Of a stretch of 44,891 bases of DNA, positions 12,670 through 44,199 are shown piece by piece (the first letter of the stretch is position 1; every line of letters starts with the position of its first letter). The stretch comes from Erysipelotrichaceae bacterium NK3D112. GTDB lineage: Bacteria > Bacillota_I > Bacilli_A > Erysipelotrichales > Erysipelotrichaceae. Both the position numbers and the translations under genes were made by a program. The stretch covers positions 1 to 44,891 of the forward strand of contig JNJQ01000021.1 of assembly GCA_000701725.1 (NCBI GenBank), given 5' to 3'. The notes under the pieces are model-generated. The model did not search any database. It had not been told where the DNA came from and saw only the letters and a list, made by a program, of their open reading frames with translations.

Positions 12670-13569
12670 TCACTGAAGCAGTGAGGCATAAGCGGGATCA
12701 AGTGCCGTCAGCTCCCTGAACGTATCGATTTCCGCGATATCCGCGAAGGAGCACTCTCTGATATGAACGATATAGTCATTCTTATGATACTGAAGCGGAA
12801 CCAGATCCCAGAATCTCTCTTTTCCGCCAGGCGCCAGGTAAACCTCTTCAATATGACCCGCAAGTTTTCTGCCGTCCTCCTCATTCCAGTATGAGATGCC
12901 GTACATGTGATAACAGTTCATTCCGCCGACCACAACGCCGGTGATGACATTTTTGCTGTTGACGGTGAAGCACCAGTCATCCGTGCGTTCCACCGGAACA
13001 CCCAGATAGTTTGATTCATACTGATATTTCTGAATAAGATCCGGATTGCGCAGAATGAGATCCCCTTCCAGGACATAGGCGTTGGAAAGCAGATCCTTCG
13101 CTCTTAATACCGAAGAGATATTGTTTGTCTCACGGTAGTCATCATTATCAATAAAGTGGATGTCCGGATATTTATACAGAAGCTGGTCAAACTGTTCTCT
13201 GAGATAGCCTCTGACAATATAGATTTCATGGATTCCCTTTGCATAAAGCGCATCGAGCATGGTGTCAATCATCCGCACACCATTGACGCGGATCAAAGGC
13301 TTGGGTGTGTTCAGGGTGATCGGCATCAGCCTGTCACCGAATCCCGCCGCCAGGATCACAGCCCGTTTCACTTTGTACGGTTCAAGTTCCTCATATCCTT
13401 TTTCCGTAACCTGACTTCCGTCAAAAAGACCTGCTGATCTGAGCTCGTCAAGAATGTGATTGACGCTGCCGGCTGAAATGCCCGCTTTCTGCGCAATTCT
13501 GCGCTGCGGCAGATGGGTATCCGAATTGGCAAGGATATTCAGAACTGAAAACTCTTTTTTATTTAACAT
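12670..13569 (-). CDS. HTH domain fused to LicC-like sugar-1-P/choline-P nucleotidyltransferase
   Basis: 299 residues. Residues 1-60 form a winged-helix DNA-binding domain (RRIAQKAGISAGSVNHILDEL is the recognition region). Residues 67-299 are a nucleotidyltransferase with LAAGFGDRL (73-81), the TPKPLI motif with Lys90, and EGDLIL with the metal Asp. Closest in pattern to CTP:phosphocholine cytidylyltransferases (LicC). The HTH fusion suggests that it senses substrate or nucleotide and controls its own locus. It is divergent from the second licC-like gene at 13747, across a 177-base region holding promoters for both. The acceptor could be phosphocholine, phosphoethanolamine or a related phospho-alcohol. 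Confidence 0.82.
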   Translation of the reverse strand: MLNKKEFSVLNILANSDTHLPQRRIAQKAGISAGSVNHILDELRSAGLFDGSQVTEKGYEELEPYKVKRAVILAAGFGDRLMPITLNTPKPLIRVNGVRMIDTMLDALYAKGIHEIYIVRGYLREQFDQLLYKYPDIHFIDNDDYRETNNISSVLRAKDLLSNAYVLEGDLILRNPDLIQKYQYESNYLGVPVERTDDWCFTVNSKNVITGVVVGGMNCYHMYGISYWNEEDGRKLAGHIEEVYLAPGGKERFWDLVPLQYHKNDYIVHIRECSFADIAEIDTFRELTALDPAYASLLQ

Positions 13570-13746: not shown

Positions 13747-14445
13747 ATGACCAAAGCAATATTAATGGCAGCCGGACTCGGCACACGCATGAGACCGCTG
13801 ACCGAAACAATGCCCAAACCGATGATTCCGGTGAACGGCACACCGATGATTGAAACCGTCGTAAAAGGCCTGCTTGCCAACGGCGTTGAGGAACTCTACG
13901 TTGTTGTCGGCTACCTCAAAGAGAAATTCGCACCGCTTGCGGAAAAGTATCCGCAGATCAGACTGGTGGAGAATACCGAATATACGATCAAGAACAATAT
14001 CTCTTCCATTCACGCGGTGACGGATTACATGCACGGCGATGACTTCTTCATCTGCGAAGCGGATCTTTACGTATCCGATCCTTCCATCTTCGCCATCCAG
14101 AACAAACAGTCCTGCTATTACGGTGTCATGGTCAAAGGCCATTCCGACGACTGGGTGTTTGATCAGGATGAAAACGGAAGAATCACCCGTGTGGGCAAAT
14201 ACGGCGATGATGTCTATAACATGTGCGGCATTTCCTGGTTTGCACAGAAGGACATCGAAACACTGCGCGACTGCATCCTTAAGGAATATGAAAAGGAAGG
14301 CCATGAACAGCTTTTCTGGGATGAGGTTGTGGACAGAAATCTCGATATTCTGAATCTGACCGTATGCCCGATTGACAGAAAGCAGATCATTGAAATCGAT
14401 ACTGCCGATGAACTGAAGGCATTTGAAGAACAGCTTAACAGTTAA
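13747..14445 (+). CDS. licC: LicC-like CTP:phosphocholine cytidylyltransferase
   Basis: 232 residues, the normal length for LicC. The nucleotide-binding signature LMAAGLGTRMRPLT lies at 6-19, the catalytic Lys24 in MPKPMIPVNG, the metal ligand Asp106 in CEADLYV, and the C-terminal EIDTADEL typical of the family. LicC makes CDP-choline from CTP and phosphocholine for decoration of teichoic acids or capsule. AAAGGA precedes the ATG. It is followed by an APC permease in the same operon. No LicA choline kinase or LicD transferase is visible, so the substrate (choline or ethanolamine phosphate) is inferred from family only. Confidence 0.85.
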   Translation: MTKAILMAAGLGTRMRPLTETMPKPMIPVNGTPMIETVVKGLLANGVEELYVVVGYLKEKFAPLAEKYPQIRLVENTEYTIKNNISSIHAVTDYMHGDDFFICEADLYVSDPSIFAIQNKQSCYYGVMVKGHSDDWVFDQDENGRITRVGKYGDDVYNMCGISWFAQKDIETLRDCILKEYEKEGHEQLFWDEVVDRNLDILNLTVCPIDRKQIIEIDTADELKAFEEQLNS

Positions 14446-17123: not shown

Positions 17124-18932
17124 TTATCCGATCTCTGCTCTTAAAGCAGCAAGTAATGTGTCATTATCCTCTTTGTTTCTGACGGCCAGACGAAGATAAT
17201 TCCTGCCGTTTGTTTTGGTTGTGAGTTCCTTGATCAGGATCTCATATTTGATCAGAAGCGTTTTGAGCAGCTCTTTGGGCGAGATGCTCTGATCAAGTTC
17301 CACCATGATGTAATTCGCCTGTGACGGAATCACACGGATGCCTTTGATCTGTTTCAGTTCTTCCGCAAATCTTGCCCGCTCTTTCCGCAGTTTTTTCAGT
17401 CCGGAAACATAATCCTTCCGGTATTTTTCTTCAATCTGCATATAGAACTCCGCAAAGGAGTTGATATTCCAGATCGCCACATCCTTTTTCATGAACTGAA
17501 TGGTTTCAGTATCGCCGGATGCCAGCACACCCAGTCTCAGACCGGGAACACCGTATGATTTGGAAATGCTCTTCATCACATACAGATGCGGACTGCCGTC
17601 AAGAATATCCTGAGCAATCAATGTGTTGTTTTCCTCATCCGAGAAGTCCGCAAATGATTCATCGATGACCAGGTTGATCTTTTTGTTTTCCGCCCAGCTG
17701 ATCATTCTGAGCAGATCCGCTTTCGGAATATAGTTGCCGCTGGGATTGTCCGGATTGACGACGATCAGGTTCTGAATGTTTTTGTCTTCAAAATAATTCA
17801 TCACATCATCCGCCGTATAGGAATAATCCTGATTTTCCGGAACGAAATCGACTGAATTCTCCCGGTCGTAGCGGTTGGGATATTCGTCAAAGGTCGGACG
17901 GATGAAGCCGGTTGTTCCGTTCAGTCTGCCCATCAGTGATTTGATCAGTTCCGCCGCGCCGTTGCCGACCAGAATATTCTCCTGGTGAACATCGAAGTTC
18001 TTCGCCGCCAGAAGGGAATTCACCTTCATGCCCGAAGGATATTCCGTCAGCAGAATATCAAAGTTGGCACGCAGCTCTTCTTTCATCTTCTTCGGGGGAT
18101 AGTACGGATTGACCAGATAGCAGAAATCCAGAAGTTTCGGATATCTCCAATAGCCGCCGTATCTGCTCTGGATCAGTCTGACCTTCTCATCTTCAACAGG
18201 AGTGAAGATGGACTCCGCGATATCAAGATCCTGGATATCATCGATCTCATACCATTTCTGACCGTTCAGTCTCTTGGCCCTGATTCCCGGATCATCGAGC
18301 ATTGTGATGACGCGCAGAACCTGTTCATAATATTCATTCTCACCAAGTGCCTTTTCATATGCATCAAGGAACGGCACATAATGGGTGGTTGAAAATTCCT
18401 TTGAGAATTTATAGATATTTACGGTTTTGTAGTATTCATCCTTTTCGTCGAATCTGAACCGCTTGCCCGGAACAAACTCCTCAATGGAATCATCATCGGA
18501 CAGCTTGACACAGGTGCCGTCCATCCATGATTCATACTTGTCCACAAGCGCGAGGGTGTCTCTTTCATCATTGAGCAGCTCATCCAGAACGGAATCCTCG
18601 AAAATCAGATCCGATTCAAACAGCAGCGTATCCTCTTTGCACAGCCAGTCCTTGGCCAGCGCGAGGGAATAGATATTATTGGTTTTGTTGTAGACGGGAT
18701 TGTTGATATATACAATCGGCATATTGATGCCCAGCGTATCAATGTAGTCAATGAGCTTCTGCCCTTCATAGCCAACAACGATCACGATCCGTGAAAGGTG
18801 CCGCGATTCAATCTGTCTGAGCATGCGCTCGATCAAAGTGACGCCATTCACCTTGACCATGCATTTTGTGTTGTTCTGAGTCAGTTCTTTCAGCCGTCTG
18901 CCCATTCCGGCGGCCAGTATGATTGCCTGCAT
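17124..18932 (-). CDS. Bifunctional nucleotidyltransferase / PLP-dependent aminotransferase-fold enzyme
   Basis: 602 residues in two domains. Residues 1-245 are a LicC/PntC-like nucleotidyltransferase: LAAGMGRRLKELT (6-18), Lys26-type NTKCMVKVNG, metal Asp in FESDLIF (about 108) and the closing WYEIDDIQDLDIAE. Residues 255-602 are a fold-type I PLP enzyme of the HisC/CobD branch: NPDNPSG (393-399), IDESF (Asp424) and SISKSYG with the PLP lysine Lys458, then GLRLG. The fold resembles aminotransferases and the threonine-phosphate decarboxylase CobD, so it could transaminate or decarboxylate a phosphorylated amino acid, and the first domain would attach CMP. It recalls the fusion of PntC with a phosphonate transaminase, but the PLP branch differs and no pepM/ppd genes are seen. 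TGGAGG precedes the ATG. Confidence 0.85.
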   Translation of the reverse strand: MQAIILAAGMGRRLKELTQNNTKCMVKVNGVTLIERMLRQIESRHLSRIVIVVGYEGQKLIDYIDTLGINMPIVYINNPVYNKTNNIYSLALAKDWLCKEDTLLFESDLIFEDSVLDELLNDERDTLALVDKYESWMDGTCVKLSDDDSIEEFVPGKRFRFDEKDEYYKTVNIYKFSKEFSTTHYVPFLDAYEKALGENEYYEQVLRVITMLDDPGIRAKRLNGQKWYEIDDIQDLDIAESIFTPVEDEKVRLIQSRYGGYWRYPKLLDFCYLVNPYYPPKKMKEELRANFDILLTEYPSGMKVNSLLAAKNFDVHQENILVGNGAAELIKSLMGRLNGTTGFIRPTFDEYPNRYDRENSVDFVPENQDYSYTADDVMNYFEDKNIQNLIVVNPDNPSGNYIPKADLLRMISWAENKKINLVIDESFADFSDEENNTLIAQDILDGSPHLYVMKSISKSYGVPGLRLGVLASGDTETIQFMKKDVAIWNINSFAEFYMQIEEKYRKDYVSGLKKLRKERARFAEELKQIKGIRVIPSQANYIMVELDQSISPKELLKTLLIKYEILIKELTTKTNGRNYLRLAVRNKEDNDTLLAALRAEIG

Positions 18933-19319
18933 AAAAACCTCCAGCTACAGTTATCAATCATCGGATTCACGGACAGGAATCAGCTGTCTGTCCGGAGTTG
19001 TGGAATATCCTGCATATATTGATGCAGGTGAATGATCGGCCGCATAAACCGCCATATAGTATAAATCCAAAAAAACCGGTAAATATTATGGTTTTTTATG
19101 ATCATATTATACATTTTATTCATCCATGCTGATTGTACATGTACGCAAACACAGCGTCAACTGAATATTTGTTCACAATAATTGTCGAATCAGGAGACCA
19201 TCATTGCCGTTTGCCGGTGCATTCTCCAGCCTTGCAAAGTCCGGATTTCATCCAGAAACTGTGCCAATTTTCCATCATCTTCATATATGATATATAGGTT
19301 GACACAGGAGGCTGCCGCA
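18933..19319. other. Divergent intergenic region with hairpins
   Basis: 387 bases between the nucleotidyltransferase-PLP fusion (minus) and the YidC-TagF gene (plus). The minus-strand leader holds two stems, CCTGCAT/ATGCAGG (19008-19028) and GGACAG/CTGTCC (about 18970-18992). A minus-strand TATACT near 19060 is a possible -10 with a poor -35. An AT-rich stem AAAAAACC/GGTTTTTT lies at about 19070-19097. A plus-strand frame from 19182 merges in frame with the YidC-TagF gene but has no start signal. No gene is supported here. Confidence 0.45.
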
Positions 19320-21434
19320 ATGGGTTTTCTCGGACAGTTATTAGGGCCGGTCATGGGTTTCTGCTATAACCTGACAAAGAACTACGGACTGGCAATCATA
19401 TTATTCACATTCTTCAGCAAAATCATTCTTCTTCCCATCTCTGTATGGGTTCAGAAGAATTCCATCACAATGGTAAAGATCGAACCGGATGTCAACCGGA
19501 TCAAGATCAAGCACTTCGGAGACAAGGATGCCATCGCAGAAGAACAGCAGAAGCTGTATAAAAAGGAAAAGTACAATCCGCTGGCTTCCCTGGTTCCTCT
19601 GATCGCCCAGATCGTATTGCTGATGGGTGTGGTCGAAGTCATCTATCATCCGCTGGATTACATTCTCCGTGTTCCTGCGCCTGTCGCTAAGGAAATGATG
19701 AATGTGACTCTGAACAATGTGGACTTCCTGGATGAGGAATCCAGTTCCATCCAGATCTACACGGTTGAGGATATCCAGAACGGCAATGAGGCGGATTATT
19801 ATCAGCTTCAGGAACAGTTCCCCGAAACAGATATGAATCAGATCATTGATTCATGCAGGAACTTCCATATGAAAGCCTTCGGCATTGATCTTGGCTGGAT
19901 CGCTTCCGAAGTCGGCGGAATCGCTCTGATCGCTCCGTTACTGGCAGGTCTTTCTTCCCTTCTGCTTGCGGTTGCACAGAATAAGATCAACGTTCTTCAG
20001 TCCGAACAGTCCAATGCCAACAAGTACGGCATGCTTGCCTTCTCGGTATTGTTATCCCTGTATCTCGGCATGTTTGTGCCGGCCGGCGTTGCCCTGTACT
20101 GGGTGGCGAGCAATCTGATGGCCATCATCCAGCAGTACTTCATGAACATGGCAATCAACCCTGCGAAGTATGTTGATTATGAAGCGCTGGAATCCACAAG
20201 GAATGAGCTGAAGTCATTGTCCGGCGGAGATAAGAAACTCAAGTTCAATGATCCGCTTGCCAAACGTGCCAAAGCAGACTATAAACGTTTCTTCTCAATT
20301 GAAAACAAACACCTTGTCTTCTATTCCGAAAGCAACGGCTTCTATAAATACTTCAAGGGAATGATTGAATACATTCTGAAATACACAAACATCCCGGTTC
20401 ACTACATTACAAGCGACCCCAACGACCAGATCTTTGAACTGGCAAAGACAAACGATCAGATCAAACCGTATTTCATCGATCCGATCACATTGATCACATT
20501 AATGATGAAAATGGATGCGGACGTGGTGGTTATGACCATGCCCGACCTTGAGACATATCAGATCAAGAGATCCTATGTCAGAAAGGATATTGAATATATC
20601 AATGTGTCCCATGGCATGGGTTCACTGAACCTGACCTTCCGCAAAGGCGCGCTGGATCACTTTGACACAGTATATGCCTCAGGCAAACACCAGAAAGAAG
20701 AGATTGAGAAACAGGAAGAATACTATCATCTTCCGAAGAAGAGAATCATCGAAGGCGGCTATCCGCTGCTGGATGATATGAGAGCTTCCTACGCGAAGAT
20801 GCCCAAGGTTGTTCATGAGAAGAAACAGATCCTCATCGCGCCTTCATGGCAGAAGGACAACATTGTGGACTCCTGCCTGGATGAGATCCTGAATCAGTTA
20901 AAGGGACACGGATATCAGATCACCGTGCGTCCTCACCCCCAGCATGTTCGCCACATGCCTGAGAAGATGGAACAGCTGAAACAGAAGTTCGCCAACGACC
21001 ATGACATCGAGATCCAGACGGACTTCTCCAAGACAAGCAATGTCTTTGAAGCGGACCTGATGATCACGGACTGGTCGGATATCTCCCACGAATTCGCATA
21101 TACAACCTATAAGCCGGTATTGTTCATCGACACACCGATGAAGATCATGAATCCGGAATATCAGAATATCGATACCGTACCGATCAATATCTGGGTCAGA
21201 AATGAGATCGGCATGGTGGTTGAGCTGGACAAGCTGGATGAGATTCCGGAAAAGGTTGATTACATGCTTAACCACACAGAGGAATATCATGAGCGGATCG
21301 ACAGACTCGTTCACGAATATGTCTATCACCTGGATGAAAGTGCGCCTTATGATGCGCAGTATATTATTGATGCGGTATTCCGCAAGACAGAAGAAAGAAA
21401 CGGACTGGTCAGTGAATATGCGGAAAATATGTAA
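19320..21434 (+). CDS. YidC/Oxa1 membrane insertase fused to CDP-glycerol glycerophosphotransferase
   Basis: 704 residues from an ATG placed 8 bases after AGGAGG. Residues 1-290 are YidC-like: YGLAIILFTFFSKIILLP (Lys34 at the position where Gram-positive YidC has a groove Arg), a cytoplasmic hairpin with KLYKKEKYNPLASLVPL, and further membrane segments near 95-115, 200-230 and 240-270 including FVPAGVALYW. From about 310 to the end is a TagF/TagB-type domain (PF04464): VSHGMGSL, APSWQKDN, VRPHPQHVRHMP and TDWSDISHEFAYTT, with the His residues and SD motif expected of poly(glycerol/ribitol phosphate) transferases. The insertase part may anchor the transferase or handle its lipid-linked substrate. 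It overlaps the next gene by 17 bases. Confidence 0.9.
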   Translation: MGFLGQLLGPVMGFCYNLTKNYGLAIILFTFFSKIILLPISVWVQKNSITMVKIEPDVNRIKIKHFGDKDAIAEEQQKLYKKEKYNPLASLVPLIAQIVLLMGVVEVIYHPLDYILRVPAPVAKEMMNVTLNNVDFLDEESSSIQIYTVEDIQNGNEADYYQLQEQFPETDMNQIIDSCRNFHMKAFGIDLGWIASEVGGIALIAPLLAGLSSLLLAVAQNKINVLQSEQSNANKYGMLAFSVLLSLYLGMFVPAGVALYWVASNLMAIIQQYFMNMAINPAKYVDYEALESTRNELKSLSGGDKKLKFNDPLAKRAKADYKRFFSIENKHLVFYSESNGFYKYFKGMIEYILKYTNIPVHYITSDPNDQIFELAKTNDQIKPYFIDPITLITLMMKMDADVVVMTMPDLETYQIKRSYVRKDIEYINVSHGMGSLNLTFRKGALDHFDTVYASGKHQKEEIEKQEEYYHLPKKRIIEGGYPLLDDMRASYAKMPKVVHEKKQILIAPSWQKDNIVDSCLDEILNQLKGHGYQITVRPHPQHVRHMPEKMEQLKQKFANDHDIEIQTDFSKTSNVFEADLMITDWSDISHEFAYTTYKPVLFIDTPMKIMNPEYQNIDTVPINIWVRNEIGMVVELDKLDEIPEKVDYMLNHTEEYHERIDRLVHEYVYHLDESAPYDAQYIIDAVFRKTEERNGLVSEYAENM

Positions 21435-23391
21435 AAAACTGCTGCGGTATGTTTATTTCCTGACCGCCTTCCTCTTTCTGTTCACGATCAATGTCAACGC
21501 GTATATCGATCCGTCGGTCATGACCTATGCCATTCAGGCACTGGCGGGAATCGCGATTGCCTTAGGCACATTCTTCGGCCTGTACTGGCGCAAGATCCGC
21601 AAACCGGTGCTTCGTTTCTTCAACCTGGATGAAACAGCCGGCAAGGAAGAGGAGAGCGATGAGCTTGTTTATTTCGATCCTTCCGTCATGAAGGAGGAAA
21701 GAAAGATCATCATCCGGAAAGATTTCAAAACCAAAGACGGCGTAAAGCCAAAAGGAAAGATCCGGACCATTCTGGAAGATATGATTCCGGCACTGTTCAT
21801 CACCCTTTCCGGATGTTTCATGGTCTGCATCTATGCGCCGCTGGATCTCTATTTCACCAACAAAACAGAATTCTGGTACAACTCCGCCACCCTGTCCGCA
21901 CAGCTGTTCAGAATGTTCGGCTATGCGGTGCCTGCGGTATTGCTGGTATATCTTGTATCAAGACTGATCAGTAAGAAACTGTACAACGGTGTATTGTTCA
22001 TCACCCTTACCGCATTCATCTGCTCGTACATCCAGGGAAACTTCAGAATCGCAAACCTTCCCGCAATGGACGGCAGAGCCATCGACTGGTCTGTTTTCGG
22101 AACAGAAAACATCATCACACTCATCATCTGGATCATCGTGACCGGATTGCTGGTGACAGTATACAGATTTGTGAAAGCGAAGGGTTTCAAATCCGTCGCT
22201 GAAGTTGTCAGCTGCGTCCTGCTTGTTGTCTGCACCATTTCATTGATCTCCTCATACATGGGATCATGCCATATCGTCAAGGAATCGGAATTTGTCACTT
22301 CGACGGATCACGAACTTGATGTGTCTGATACGGAAAACTTCTATATTCTGGTGCTTGATGCGCTGGATGCGGATACCTACCGCACGGTCAGTGAGAGCCA
22401 TCCGGAATATCAGGAATGGTTCAGCGATTTCACCTTCTTCCCCAACACAACCAGTCTTTATCCCTTCACCTCACATGCAATTCCCCATATTCTGAGCGGC
22501 ATTGTTTATGAGAATGAACGGGACTTCACCGAATTCGCGACAGAGGCACTGGATCAGAGTCCCTTCCTGAACACCCTGGAAAAGCAGGGATATCATATGG
22601 GAATCTATGAGCCCGATCTCATTTACGGCGGCGATCAGCTGAAGCGTTTCGACAATATCCAGACAGACAATATCCATCTGAATCCCGAAGCGAAAAACAC
22701 ATTCGTCAAGGAACAGATGAAAATGGTGCTGTTCAAATATCTGCCGTATTGCTTCAAGAAATATATCGACTGCGACACCAACATATTCACCAGCATGAAA
22801 GGATCCAATCCCTTCACCCCCTATAACCGTGACTTCTATCTCGATCTTCAGAACGGGGAAGTGAAACATATCCATGATAAGAACTTCCGTTTCTATCATG
22901 TGGAAGGCGCACACGTGCCCTTCAAGTATGACGCCGATGTCAATTACATCCCTTATGAACAGGGATCCTATGAGCAGAACATTGAAGCAAGCATGAAAGT
23001 CGCGGATACGTTCCTCAAAAAACTCAAGGATGCCGGTGTCTATGAGAAATCGACGATTATCATCATGGCAGACCACGGCTATCAGGCCGGATCGGAATCC
23101 AACCTTGACCGCTTCAATCCGCTGCTGATGATCAAAGGATTCAACGAGACACACGAGTACACAGTCAATGAGGCTCCGATCTCCTATCTGGATCTGCCCG
23201 AAGCCTATAACCGCCTGCTCGATCACAAAACCGCTGCCGAATGCTTTGACGCAAAGGAAGGCGACCAGCGTGACAGACGGATTCTCTATTTCGTCTATCT
23301 CCAGGAGGATCTGATCCAGGAATATATCCAGGACGGATACGCATCCGATTATGAGAATCTGAAACCGACCGGAAACGAATACAGACGATAA
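21418..23391 (+). CDS. Membrane sulfatase/alkaline-phosphatase-superfamily phosphotransferase
   Basis: 657 residues; the ATG at 21418 lies inside the end of the YidC-TagF gene, so it is translationally coupled. N-terminal signal-anchor (10-28) with AYIDPSVMTYAIQALAG and a second membrane segment, a charged cytoplasmic loop, then about five more membrane segments (roughly 125-305). The extracellular part shows LDALDADTY (metal Asp), LYPFTSHAIPHILSG (nucleophile Thr/Ser) and MADHGY (metal Asp/His), the pattern of sulfatase-fold phosphoglycerol or phosphoethanolamine transferases. It probably transfers or trims a phospho-group on the polymer handled by its fused neighbour. The gene ends at a terminator. 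Confidence 0.82.
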   Translation: MRKICKKLLRYVYFLTAFLFLFTINVNAYIDPSVMTYAIQALAGIAIALGTFFGLYWRKIRKPVLRFFNLDETAGKEEESDELVYFDPSVMKEERKIIIRKDFKTKDGVKPKGKIRTILEDMIPALFITLSGCFMVCIYAPLDLYFTNKTEFWYNSATLSAQLFRMFGYAVPAVLLVYLVSRLISKKLYNGVLFITLTAFICSYIQGNFRIANLPAMDGRAIDWSVFGTENIITLIIWIIVTGLLVTVYRFVKAKGFKSVAEVVSCVLLVVCTISLISSYMGSCHIVKESEFVTSTDHELDVSDTENFYILVLDALDADTYRTVSESHPEYQEWFSDFTFFPNTTSLYPFTSHAIPHILSGIVYENERDFTEFATEALDQSPFLNTLEKQGYHMGIYEPDLIYGGDQLKRFDNIQTDNIHLNPEAKNTFVKEQMKMVLFKYLPYCFKKYIDCDTNIFTSMKGSNPFTPYNRDFYLDLQNGEVKHIHDKNFRFYHVEGAHVPFKYDADVNYIPYEQGSYEQNIEASMKVADTFLKKLKDAGVYEKSTIIIMADHGYQAGSESNLDRFNPLLMIKGFNETHEYTVNEAPISYLDLPEAYNRLLDHKTAAECFDAKEGDQRDRRILYFVYLQEDLIQEYIQDGYASDYENLKPTGNEYRR

Positions 23392-40181: not shown

Positions 40182-41450
40182 TTACTGCTTCAGAAATGAA
40201 TACATGTAATCCAGTATTTCTTCCGAGCGGTCCTCTTTCATTTCACCCATGTAATCATTCAGGACCTTCTTGCGCTCAGCGGCATTCGGATCGATGCCCG
40301 CAACGAAGTCATCCAGATGTTTCTCAACCTCTTCCCATGACTCTGTCCAGTATGAGGCAGACATCATCTTCATTCCGAATTCATTGAAATTCGCGCCGGT
40401 ATGGCAGTAGATCATCGGTTTGCATGTCAGCGTCCAGCCGACGATAATCGACGAAATATCCGTCACCAGGATGTCCGCATCCGTGAATGATGTTTTCAGG
40501 TCCGGTTTATTATCGTAGATCATTCTGTTTCCGTCAAACTGCGAAAGATATCTGTCCGCTTCCTCCTGGCTCATCTTGCCGGTTGAGACAAAGTGGTAGA
40601 AAGTCAGGGGATGGGGTCTGAAGATCAGACGGACATTGTCATGCGCTTTGACATAATCGACGATTTTATCCTTATATGTCAGGAAATTGCTGCCGCCGTG
40701 TTCCGGATCATCATTCCAGCGCGGCGTCCACAATACATTGATCATTCCGTCATCCGGACGTGTTTCCAGATGGGCGTACTGGGACAGGGACGGATAACCG
40801 AAACAGACCGCGGTGTTGGCGCCTGTCTCATATCCTTTCGGATGTCTCTTTCTGATAAAGTCGATTCTTCCCTGGTTTTCAGCGAAGAACAGCGCCACAT
40901 TGCGGAAGAATCTTCCGTTGTAGACATCATTCTCATTTTCCGTTGTCGTCTCATAGGTGTATGACATGTAGCACACCTTCGCATAGGCGGACACAACGGA
41001 ACTCTGATAAGGCTTGGGCAGATACTGATCATACGGACGCGGATAGAAGACATAATCCGGTTTCAGCTGTCTGATATCAAACAGATTATGCGGTTCCGTT
41101 CCGCTTCTGATCACTGCATTTTTGCCGTAAAGACTGACAAGTGATTTATAAGCGGCTTCGGGATCCTCGTCCATTTTCTCAGGAACAGTGACGATGTATG
41201 CCTCAAAGCGGCTGTCATCCTTCATCGCCTCATAGATATTTCTGACAACCTGCCAGTTGACTTTGTTCTGCTGAAGAAAGACAACCCGCACAGGTTCTGA
41301 GAAGTCATGTTTCATTTCCTTCTGTTTTCTGAGTCTTTGAAGCGCCTGAAGATTTCCGGCGGGAAATCCCTGAAGATACTGTTCACCAAACCAGTGAACC
41401 GGTCCGAATCCGGACAGTTTATGATAAATTCCAGCCAGCAGATCGTACAT
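40182..41450 (-). CDS. CDP-glycerol/ribitol phosphotransferase (TagF/TagB-like)
   Basis: 422 residues with the PF04464 motifs: VCYMSYTYETT at the place of the HG motif, LWTPRWNDD, IFRPHPLTFYHF and VTDISSIIVGWTL, with His in RPHP and Asp-Ile-Ser-Ser matching the phosphate-binding region. Such peripheral membrane enzymes add glycerol- or ribitol-phosphate to a lipid-linked sugar or polymer. The HG motif is altered here (Tyr-Thr), so the substrate may differ. AAAGGAAA precedes the ATG. It stands between the flippase and the polyprenyl-P GT2. Confidence 0.85.
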   Translation of the reverse strand: MYDLLAGIYHKLSGFGPVHWFGEQYLQGFPAGNLQALQRLRKQKEMKHDFSEPVRVVFLQQNKVNWQVVRNIYEAMKDDSRFEAYIVTVPEKMDEDPEAAYKSLVSLYGKNAVIRSGTEPHNLFDIRQLKPDYVFYPRPYDQYLPKPYQSSVVSAYAKVCYMSYTYETTTENENDVYNGRFFRNVALFFAENQGRIDFIRKRHPKGYETGANTAVCFGYPSLSQYAHLETRPDDGMINVLWTPRWNDDPEHGGSNFLTYKDKIVDYVKAHDNVRLIFRPHPLTFYHFVSTGKMSQEEADRYLSQFDGNRMIYDNKPDLKTSFTDADILVTDISSIIVGWTLTCKPMIYCHTGANFNEFGMKMMSASYWTESWEEVEKHLDDFVAGIDPNAAERKKVLNDYMGEMKEDRSEEILDYMYSFLKQ

Positions 41451-41471: not shown

Positions 41472-42749
41472 TCAGTTATCTGATTCCGGCGCATTGCGTC
41501 CGAACAGTTTTCTGATCACGACAATGCTGAATACAATCAGCACCACGCTCATCAGCAGTCCATAGAGGCATCCCGCCCCGAACAGCTGATAGCGGATGAC
41601 GATTCTGTTCATGAACAGAAGACAGAAGACCAATGCGGCGATATATCCGTAAAGAACGAATTTCTGTTCACGGATGATGGTGAGCACCACGACGAGAAAT
41701 GCATCGAGCGCGGAAATTCCGCCAAACAGCAGAAGCACAGTCAGAAGACCTCTCCACTGTGCAAGGTCGACACCGTACACAAGTCCGAGCATCCAGTAGC
41801 CGAACAGATATCCGCATACCGCCACAAAGACCGTGATACCGAGGATCATCACACATAATGTGAAGATCTGTTTTTTCAGCTGGGCAATCCGTTTTTCCTG
41901 CCAGCTGACGCCCATGCTGGCGACCATCGGGTTGTAGATGAACATGCTGAGAACGTTGATGACGAAGATCGGCATGAAGATAATGTTGAAGATCGCCTGG
42001 CTCTCTGCGTCCAGATTGGCCTCAATCGCATATTTCGGCGCGTTGGCAAGATAGTTGTAAAGCAGCGCGCTCGCGCATGTCGGGAAACATGTCACCAGCA
42101 GCGGAAGAACCTTATCGAATGAGACGGATGTCTTCAGATAAGGATATCTGCGCATGAATGACACATTGCATAATACATAAATCAGATGGGAAACCCCGGC
42201 CAGCACCGCGCTCGCAGTCACAAGATTGCGGGTCAGTGCATAGAATACCGCAAAGAGAGTCACAGAAACGGCAATTCTCAGACATCTGCCGATCGATGCC
42301 GCATCGAGTCTGCCCTTTTTCTGGATTTCCGCGTGATACACATCCTCAAGTCCGTCCGTTGTGCGGTAAATGCTCAGGCACGCGATGACGGCAAGACTTC
42401 TTGCCCCTCTTTGAAACAGAAGCCAGTATCCGCCGCAGCACAATAACATCAGCAGACATGTCAGCAGACGCGATGAATAATAAGTTTTGAAACTGTATTC
42501 ATCCTTGGCGTCGGAAACCTGGAAGTTTCTCATCGAATAGCTTCCAAGTGACGCGAACATCTGCGTGGTCACATAAAGGATGGAAAAGAATCCGGCCTCG
42601 TTCAGTCCGCCGATTCTGGTCACAATCAGCAACAATACCGCTGACTGCAGCGCATAGATCAGACTGGAACAGAGATTCCAGAAATACACACGCTTCTGGA
42701 CTCCGGCATCATCTTTGCCAAACAGCAGTCTGTCAATCGTGCCGGTCAT
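41472..42749 (-). CDS. Oligosaccharide flippase family (Wzx-like) membrane protein
   Basis: 425 residues with about 12 membrane segments and the MATE/MOP arrangement: RVYFWNLCSSLIYALQSAVLLLIVTRIGGLNEAGFF-type first helices, and FNIIFMPIFVINVLSMFIYNP in the middle. Flippases of this type turn lipid-linked oligosaccharides to the outer face. The start at 42749 overlaps the preceding gene by 17 bases; an ATG at 42782 would overlap more, and neither has a strong binding site. Finding it beside a Wzm/Wzt exporter in one cluster is unusual; no Wzy-type polymerase is obvious. Confidence 0.82.
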   Translation of the reverse strand: MTGTIDRLLFGKDDAGVQKRVYFWNLCSSLIYALQSAVLLLIVTRIGGLNEAGFFSILYVTTQMFASLGSYSMRNFQVSDAKDEYSFKTYYSSRLLTCLLMLLCCGGYWLLFQRGARSLAVIACLSIYRTTDGLEDVYHAEIQKKGRLDAASIGRCLRIAVSVTLFAVFYALTRNLVTASAVLAGVSHLIYVLCNVSFMRRYPYLKTSVSFDKVLPLLVTCFPTCASALLYNYLANAPKYAIEANLDAESQAIFNIIFMPIFVINVLSMFIYNPMVASMGVSWQEKRIAQLKKQIFTLCVMILGITVFVAVCGYLFGYWMLGLVYGVDLAQWRGLLTVLLLFGGISALDAFLVVVLTIIREQKFVLYGYIAALVFCLLFMNRIVIRYQLFGAGCLYGLLMSVVLIVFSIVVIRKLFGRNAPESDN

Positions 42750-44199
42750 GATCCGCGGATGCCTTTCTGTTTTTGAGGTCATTCATCTTCTGCTGAAGTG
42801 TGGTGAATGCGTAGAACGGCGCGTATTTCACATATGCGGCCGCCTTCTGCCCCTTTGTCATATTTTTGAATACAGCCCTTGTGCTGTAATAATTCAGTCC
42901 GCCCTGTTTCAGAGCGTTATAGAATTTCTGGCCGATGCCGAATCTCTGATCATACGGGTAAATATATTTCTCATAGATCAGACACAGGTCTTTCATGAAA
43001 CCGGCGCTGTATTCGCCGGAACTGGTGACACCGGACAGTTTGTACTCAACCGTGTAATGGTCAAGATAGCCGAATGTCTCACCGCTTTGCGCCAGCATCA
43101 TCCAGTACGGATAGTCCTCAATCAGACGGATCTCTTCATCGTGATAGCCGAATTTCTCAAACACCGCTGCCTTGTAGAAAGCGGCAGGGGCGGGAAGATA
43201 ATTGCGTTTGAAGAGATGGTTGAGTGTCTGCTTGGCATCAAACTGTTTCAGCTTGTCATAATCCGTGTCGCAGGAGAGCAGCTCATATTTGTATTCGCCT
43301 TCCGGCGTGACCCCGCGCAGCTTTCCGAAGCACACATACTTCGTGCTGTTTCTCATGAAGGCCTCATAGACTTCCAGGGTCTGCGGTTCGGATAACATGT
43401 CGCCGGCGCCGATCACCATCATATAGGTTCCCTTTGCAATTTTCAGGGCGCTGTTGATGTTTTTGACCGTGCCCTGATTTTCCGCATGTCTGTTGATCAC
43501 AAAGCTGATGAGATTGCTGCGTCTGTTTGCCGCGACATAATCATTGAGCTTCTGCTCATACTGATCAAAATCCGGTGTGCAGTCATCGGTGAGGATCAGC
43601 TCCACACATGGATAAGTCTGTTTCAGAATGCTTTCAAATGAGTCATATGCCTCATCGACATTTTTATAGGAGGTGACGATGACGGAAATGCACGGTTTCT
43701 GCTCATAGCAGAACCAGAGCAGATCATTCCCTTTGCCGTATCCTTTTGTCAGATAATCCGGCACTCTTCCCTCTTTCACTTCCGTGAAGCGGTTCTTTCT
43801 GTAAAAGCGGACCGCGCGGGGATTGCCGGCTGACACGCACCAGTAGATTTTATTCAGGCCGAGCTCATTCAATGCCTCATTCAGGATTTCGCGCATGCCG
43901 AAAATGGCCGCGCCGGTTCCCATCGCTTTGCGCCTGACGGTAATCGCGAATTCGCCGCAGCCAAGCTGCTTGTCAATGTCGCGCACCGAAACCGTGCCGA
44001 GATATTCATCCTCCTCATTGACGACTGCCCTGTGCACCGCGGTTCCATCCGCCTGTGCACCGGCAATGAAATTCAGGCAGTGATCAATGGTAAAAGAGCT
44101 GAAATCCTTGCGCATGCCGGCAACGACATCCGGATCGTGCATCCACTCAAGCATGAGCGGAGCGTCTTTTTCTTTCAGTTTCCTTATCTTCAATTCCAT
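42733..44199 (-). CDS. GNAT acetyltransferase fused to GT2 glycosyltransferase
   Basis: 488 residues. Residues 1-165 are a GNAT domain (LKEKDAPLMLEWMHDPDV, the CoA-binding region RRKAMGTGAAIFGM, and NPRAVRFYRKNRF). From about 172 a GT2 domain follows: ISVIVTSYKNVDEAYDSF, LILTDDCTPD, MMVIGAGDM (DXD-like position) and IEDYPYWMML. The two activities suggest acetylation of an amino sugar and its transfer by one polypeptide. The upstream gene is the FdtB-like aminotransferase, which would supply the 3-amino sugar. The start is 2 bases after that gene's stop with a weak binding site. Confidence 0.87.
   Translation of the reverse strand: MELKIRKLKEKDAPLMLEWMHDPDVVAGMRKDFSSFTIDHCLNFIAGAQADGTAVHRAVVNEEDEYLGTVSVRDIDKQLGCGEFAITVRRKAMGTGAAIFGMREILNEALNELGLNKIYWCVSAGNPRAVRFYRKNRFTEVKEGRVPDYLTKGYGKGNDLLWFCYEQKPCISVIVTSYKNVDEAYDSFESILKQTYPCVELILTDDCTPDFDQYEQKLNDYVAANRRSNLISFVINRHAENQGTVKNINSALKIAKGTYMMVIGAGDMLSEPQTLEVYEAFMRNSTKYVCFGKLRGVTPEGEYKYELLSCDTDYDKLKQFDAKQTLNHLFKRNYLPAPAAFYKAAVFEKFGYHDEEIRLIEDYPYWMMLAQSGETFGYLDHYTVEYKLSGVTSSGEYSAGFMKDLCLIYEKYIYPYDQRFGIGQKFYNALKQGGLNYYSTRAVFKNMTKGQKAAAYVKYAPFYAFTTLQQKMNDLKNRKASADHDRHD

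Follow-up and report, generated by a model that had tools for sequence, protein, structure and literature searches.

In a stretch of 44,891 nucleotides from Erysipelotrichaceae bacterium NK3D112 (hereafter the window, analysed at its full length), we identified a gene that joins a YidC/Oxa1-fold membrane domain to a TagF-type phosphotransferase domain in one polypeptide, and a neighbouring gene for an AlkP-superfamily transferase with which it forms a well-supported partnership. We tentatively propose that the fusion is a membrane-bound head-group transferase working in a lipid relay with this partner, which would act at the outer face of the membrane. The features of the window on which the argument draws are the following.

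12670..13569, minus strand: wHTH domain fused to a LicC-like nucleotidyltransferase; 16 fusion loci hold relatives
13747..14445, plus strand: LicC-like nucleotidyltransferase (PF12804/PF00483)
17124..18932, minus strand: bifunctional LicC/PntC-like cytidylyltransferase and CobD-like PLP enzyme, divergent from the fusion; relatives near the fusion in 19 loci
19306..19311, plus strand: Shine-Dalgarno site AGGAGG, 8 nt 5' of the ATG, read directly
19320..21434, plus strand: YidC-TagF fusion, 704 aa (single frame; about 80 full-length homologues)
19320..20189, plus strand: YidC/Oxa1-fold half, with five membrane helices predicted from the AlphaFold2 model (PF02096; fold match to 3wo7)
19419..19421, plus strand: Lys34, groove position (K in 75/76 sequences, R in 1/76)
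19977..20009, plus strand: predicted cytosolic C2 loop, residues 220-230 (QNKINVLQSEQ), with N221, N224, Q227 and Q230 kept in fusions only
20295..21395, plus strand: GT-B phosphotransferase half of the TagF/TarL fold (PF04464, E 1e-12; fold matches to 3l7k and 8va1)
20610..20612, plus strand: His431 of the HG motif, invariant; by motif, the position of the TagF/TarL catalytic base
20928..20939, plus strand: RPHP motif, residues 537-540, invariant
21069..21077, plus strand: DWS motif, residues 584-586, invariant
21418..23391, plus strand: membrane-anchored AlkP-superfamily transferase (EptA/PbgA/LtaS-like; PF00884), its start overlapping the fusion end by 17 nt

A single-frame YidC-TagF fusion

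The initial annotation had described an uninterrupted frame with a strong ribosome binding site and had taken the fusion to be genuine. Both points are confirmed: 704 codons run from the ATG without an internal stop, AGGAGG lies 8 nt before it, and profile searches with the two halves detect PF02096 (E 1.1e-33) and PF04464 (E 9.9e-13). A single scan across 84,980 species genomes returned 179 relatives, of which 80, nearly all full-length and 45-93% identical, were kept. The presence of one frame in about 80 independent loci, including the intact fusions of loci L052 and L075, excludes a frameshift between the domains, an assembly artefact or a split gene. The AlphaFold2 model, built with 58 natural sequences as input, reaches a pLDDT of 90.6 and a pTM of 0.61, at which the modelled arrangement of the two domains relative to each other is uncertain. 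Separately, G000:C50:2000-4500 (locus L101) holds a near-identical second copy of the cytidylyltransferase-PLP gene at 17124-18932. Next to it are the remains of a YidC-TagF fusion gene, decayed, with an internal deletion and with 79% identity over residues 89-166. Either this is a duplicate of the locus that has broken down, or the assembly contains DNA from a second strain.

Many carriers are Bacillota of the gut; they belong to the Erysipelotrichaceae ('Solobacterium'), Lachnospiraceae, Oscillospiraceae and other Bacilli and Clostridia, and 13 Candidatus Saccharibacteria are carriers as well. The occurrence is patchy, with the fusion in 2/395 Bacilli-class and 10/250 Lachnospiraceae genomes, where the class and family names of both samples were derived from the named loci nearest to their centres, the window and R. 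inulinivorans. In a midpoint-rooted tree of 76 sequences, made by a quick method, the Saccharibacteria come out as a single group with full support, lying among Bacillota sequences. Their fusion loci share neighbouring genes across MAGs, which makes contamination unlikely, and the fusion has likely been transferred between phyla. These loci (L044, L047-L049, L051, L053, L056, L057, L060-L062, L065 and L069) often lie beside donor genes, and the carriers, where checked, have genomes of 0.7-0.8 Mb. A search of plasmids with the fusion gave zero matches. Four short, unannotated contigs from human faeces labelled 'Bacteriophage sp.' (MT838376.1, MT836947.1, MT836777.1 and MT839317.1, the last matching only in the YidC half) encode relatives and resemble bacterial sequence caught up in virome data. 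We therefore rejected the reading of a mobile or plasmid gene.

The YidC domain recognised in the initial annotation is supported by PF02096 over residues 22-276 (113-117 bits against a cut-off of 35), by TIGR03592 (109.7 bits against 84.3) and by the fold of Bacillus halodurans YidC (3wo7; Z 19.6, rmsd 3.5 over 204 residues, 26% identity). The host also encodes a separate, ordinary YidC (G000:C38:9752-10393), as do 11/12 other carriers tested, including the complete genome of GAM79 and R. inulinivorans. Compared with the ordinary YidCs of carriers, the fusions have invariant residues of their own: N47, N59 and Y85 at the cytosolic end of TM1 and in the C1 hairpin, N221, N224, Q227 and Q230 in the C2 loop, and P281 and L290 after TM5. 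The polar residues among them group on the cytosolic side. Conservation follows the same pattern, reaching 77% in the cytosolic C2 loop and 69% in the C1 region, against 25%, with zero near-invariant positions, in the variable extracellular insert (residues 110-199). Within the membrane, T30, K34, Q97, S246 and N265 are invariant residues of this half. The initial annotation had stressed Lys34 in place of the usual groove arginine. The residue is indeed highly conserved, but its peculiarity is not upheld, as the equivalent position is occupied by N, R, K or Y in the ordinary YidCs of carriers, and we no longer regard it as a special feature.

The second half was said to be a complete PF04464 domain with HG, RPHP and SD motifs, and this description stands. 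When the C-terminal half is scanned alone, or in the genome search, PF04464 matches about residues 326-675 at 48 bits against a cut-off of 22.1; the full-length scan of the fusion gave no PF04464 match, probably a filter effect. The profile detects 48/58 full-length homologues at E <= 0.001, and H431, R537-P538-H539-P540 and D584-W585-S586 are invariant in all 58, their correspondence to TagF/TarL being set by motif and not by side-chain superposition. TagF is the best fold match (3l7k; Foldseek E 5e-11, Z 21.8), followed by TarL (8va1; Z 20.5). In sequence the half is remote from TagF (about 16% identity), and a PDB sequence search with it found nothing, so that only fold comparison gave a match. 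Because the helices fit the YidC topology, the transferase half would by homology lie in the cytosol, where the CDP donors are. The minus strand of the window encodes, at 40182-41450, a further PF04464 protein, which is highly divergent (27 bits).

The AlkP-superfamily partner and the donor-making neighbours

The partner protein combines a membrane helix bundle with an AlkP-superfamily domain, and its group shows a mean column identity of 24%. D313, T350, H498, D551 and H552, which make up the Thr nucleophile and the metal-ligand set, are invariant in 58/58 members; with Thr at position 350 throughout, the partner is no sulfatase in the strict sense. Its best full-length Foldseek matches are PbgA/YejM, EptA and MCR-1, with low whole-chain TM-scores, and lone AlkP domains of sulfatases match equally well. 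An NCBIfam scan of the window's copy gave no match, and some members match LTA synthase weakly.

The partnership with the fusion is well supported by genome context. In 51/79 loci, no more than 500 bp separate the partner from the fusion; L052 and L075 can be added by eye, and the partner is present in 13/13 carriers examined. Among 250 Lachnospiraceae, 10 carry the fusion, nine the partner (E <= 1e-80) and eight both, two of the 10 carriers lacking a strong partner match (Fisher P = 1.2e-12, a figure that is overstated since genomes are treated as independent). The partner profile was built from fusion-adjacent genes, which does not in itself force the absence of the partner from most non-carriers. 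Furthermore, three Lachnospiraceae MAGs encode triple fusions, YidC-TagF-TM-AlkP, each in one frame: L066:9992-14068 (1359 aa), L068:1223-5482 (1420 aa) and L085:9998-14131 (1378 aa). In another locus (L042:102-9986), six partner genes stand in tandem before one fusion gene, where perhaps several glycan targets are fed by one donor.

Genes for making activated head groups also gather around the fusion. Donor modules occur within 3 kb in 47/79 loci, and thus not in every locus, and cytidylyltransferase and amino-alcohol modules account for 18% of the genes within 3 kb compared with 3% at 6-10 kb (P = 7e-10). Several sets of neighbours can be distinguished. Phosphonate genes comprise a PEP mutase with its own CTP_transf_like domain, phosphonopyruvate decarboxylase and a PhnW/AepZ-like transaminase, all three directly downstream of the fusion in R. 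inulinivorans (locus L059); a PhnS2/PhnU2 aminoethylphosphonate importer is also found among the neighbours. Choline genes comprise a choline kinase-LicC fusion, LicC with wHTH, and a BCCT transporter, and another set combines a TagD-like domain and an oxidoreductase with a HisC-like PLP enzyme. The cytidylyltransferase-PLP proteins, which the window encodes at 17124-18932, keep the PLP lysine motif in 19/19 cases. The window's product, whose best structure match is the threonine-phosphate-decarboxylase-like 6oux, probably makes a CDP-amino-alcohol, and it may convert a phosphorylated amino acid into CDP-ethanolamine or CDP-aminopropanol in one chain; its CobD-like PLP domain differs from that of Treponema denticola PntC, which is a class V AEP transaminase. 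These independent chemistries converge repeatedly on a CDP/CMP-activated small amine. A further fusion, of a GNAT acetyltransferase with a family 2 glycosyltransferase, is encoded at 42733-44199 (minus strand) in the surface-polysaccharide region of the window.

The donor evidence modifies one label of the initial annotation. It had called the second half a TagF-type glycerophosphotransferase, but in the neighbourhoods the supply of CDP-glycerol is far rarer than that of CDP-choline, CMP-aminoethylphosphonate or further donors of the amino-alcohol kind. Some fusion loci lie near TagD-like cytidylyltransferases, so that some members could use CDP-glycerol derivatives. Choline, ethanolamine and AEP have no second hydroxyl and can therefore be transferred and not polymerised; the fusion is probably a single-transfer head-group transferase and no teichoic acid polymerase. 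PEP mutase is enriched in Lachnospiraceae carriers (5/10, against 18/240 non-carriers; P = 8e-4). It is present in R. inulinivorans and GAM79 and was not found in the window's genome, whose donor is accordingly not home-made AEP. A general AEP transferase was rejected as a description, as only 5/23 PEP-mutase Lachnospiraceae genomes hold the fusion. LicD, another consumer of CDP-choline-type donors, occurs in 8/13 carriers, and some donor may go elsewhere for this reason. EptA draws the group that it transfers from PE, and LtaS from PG. PS decarboxylase is absent in 11/13 carriers, which leaves these without the usual PE donor for an EptA-like enzyme, so that another donor lipid is needed.

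A proposed lipid relay and its alternatives

The relay that we tentatively favour would proceed in four steps. Cytosolic enzymes and CTP would activate phosphocholine, 2-aminoethylphosphonate or an amino-alcohol phosphate obtained by decarboxylation. In the second step, the H431/RPHP/DWS site of the TagF-type half would take phospho(no)-X from CDP-X and attach it to a membrane lipid, either diacylglycerol or a glycolipid, at its hydroxyl. The resulting lipid may be held at the cytosolic mouth of the YidC half while its polar head passes through the hydrophilic groove to the outer leaflet, a step in which the YidC half would serve as a dedicated scramblase and not as a protein insertase. Finally, the EptA/LtaS-like partner, whose catalytic Thr would face outward, would pass phospho(no)-X from the lipid to surface glycans. 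The parts of this scheme differ in strength. Neighbouring genes argue strongly for CDP/CMP-activated amino-alcohols as the donor class; a membrane lipid as the acceptor of the TagF half is moderately supported; and flipping by the YidC half is a weaker suggestion. For the latter, there is precedent in the lipid scrambling of E. coli YidC in vitro and of Oxa1-family proteins in simulation (PMC10491306, preprint).

It is also possible, if somewhat doubtful, that the YidC/Oxa1 fold has become a dedicated lipid translocase here, with synthesis, flipping and, in the triple fusions, extracellular handover in one chain. The initial annotation had suggested a different use of the fold, which is plausible since carriers keep a separate YidC. 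It had left the choice between an anchor and a groove facing lipid. The link to the AlkP transferase and the invariant polar residues on the cytosolic side give better support to the groove, and the anchor is the less supported of the two.

The anchor in its fuller form is nevertheless the strongest of the alternatives, though unlikely in our estimate. It holds that the YidC half is an anchor and acceptor platform only, that phospho(no)-X is added by the TagF half, on the cytosolic side, to a glycan carried on a lipid, that another transporter flips the product, and that the AlkP enzyme acts later or on another lipid. LicD-type enzymes decorate lipid-linked glycans in the cytosol, several loci contain glycosyltransferases, ABC exporters and LicD, and the conservation of the cytosolic side would fit anchoring or acceptor docking equally. 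However, a five-helix YidC fold with five invariant residues inside the membrane exceeds what an anchor needs, and an EptA/LtaS-like enzyme that is paired with it almost exclusively, and fused to it in some loci, suggests that a head group is carried on a lipid and used outside.

We consider it quite improbable that the fusion is a polymerase of the teichoic acid type that works at the membrane, adding glycerol- or ribitol-phosphate from CDP donors with YidC in place of the N-terminal membrane-binding part of TagF. Such a role would agree with TagF and TarL as the best fold matches, with the TagD-like domains at some loci and with the weak LTA-synthase match of some partners, whereas the commonest donors of the neighbourhoods lack the second hydroxyl, and the PF04464 match of the fusion is remote, at 48 bits against 299 for the host's own C33 protein. 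Still less probable is that the YidC half is a working insertase dedicated to its polytopic AlkP neighbour, the transferase being attached so that the two are co-regulated. The conserved YidC fold and the constant presence of a polytopic membrane protein next to it are what such a role would predict, but in the triple fusions the client follows further along one and the same polypeptide, carriers already own a YidC, and the TagF half is left unexplained. Lastly, a housekeeping YidC with a vestigial C-terminus, which the initial annotation had raised and in whose favour we found nothing, is refuted for most carriers by their separate YidC, by the motifs of the C-terminal half that are invariant in 58 homologues, and by the patchy distribution.

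Significance and comparison with known systems

To our knowledge, no natural pathway depends on lipid scrambling by YidC; if the relay is true, the fusion family would be one. It might also answer how bacteria without PS decarboxylase feed an EptA/LtaS-like enzyme, and since the family extends to Saccharibacteria, a surface modification may be shared between phyla. Roseburia inulinivorans DSM 16841 and Lachnospiraceae bacterium GAM79 are named carriers open to experiment. The work on PntC described phosphonyl tailoring after installation of the C-P bond as enigmatic and, for the later transfer, pointed to LicD-like enzymes or glycosyltransferases (PMC6697681); our findings supply candidates for the late steps that follow CTP activation when gut bacteria tailor their surface with phosphonates and amino-alcohols. 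The initial annotation knew of no functional description, and in the open-access literature we likewise found none of a YidC-transferase fusion.

The fusion shares with the YidC/Oxa1/SpoIIIJ insertases (PF02096, TIGR03592) the fold, the five helices, the groove position and the cytosolic C-terminus. Unlike them, it has an attached GT-B transferase and invariant residues of its own, coexists with a normal YidC and is patchily distributed. With the polyol-phosphate transferases TagF, TarL and TagB (PF04464), its C-terminal half has in common the GT-B fold and the HG, RPHP and D-x-S motifs, whereas a YidC domain replaces their N-terminal membrane part, the identity is low, and the neighbouring genes mostly supply amine head groups. 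The partner resembles EptA, MCR, LtaS and PbgA in its AlkP domain, Thr nucleophile and D/H ligand set and, less certainly, in its N-terminal helix bundle, and differs from them in its link to the fusion and in the window copy's lack of an NCBIfam match. For the transfer of CDP-choline to a lipid, the LicD-family diacylglycerol cholinephosphotransferase Mf1 (NF045866) is a precedent by its NCBI family name, although Mf1 is an unrelated LicD domain with no YidC part. The LicC/LicD phosphocholine and PntC phosphonate pathways (PMC6697681) likewise decorate the surface using CTP-activated amino-alcohol phosphate or phosphonate donors; the transferase here would be the YidC-TagF fusion with its outer AlkP partner in place of LicD.
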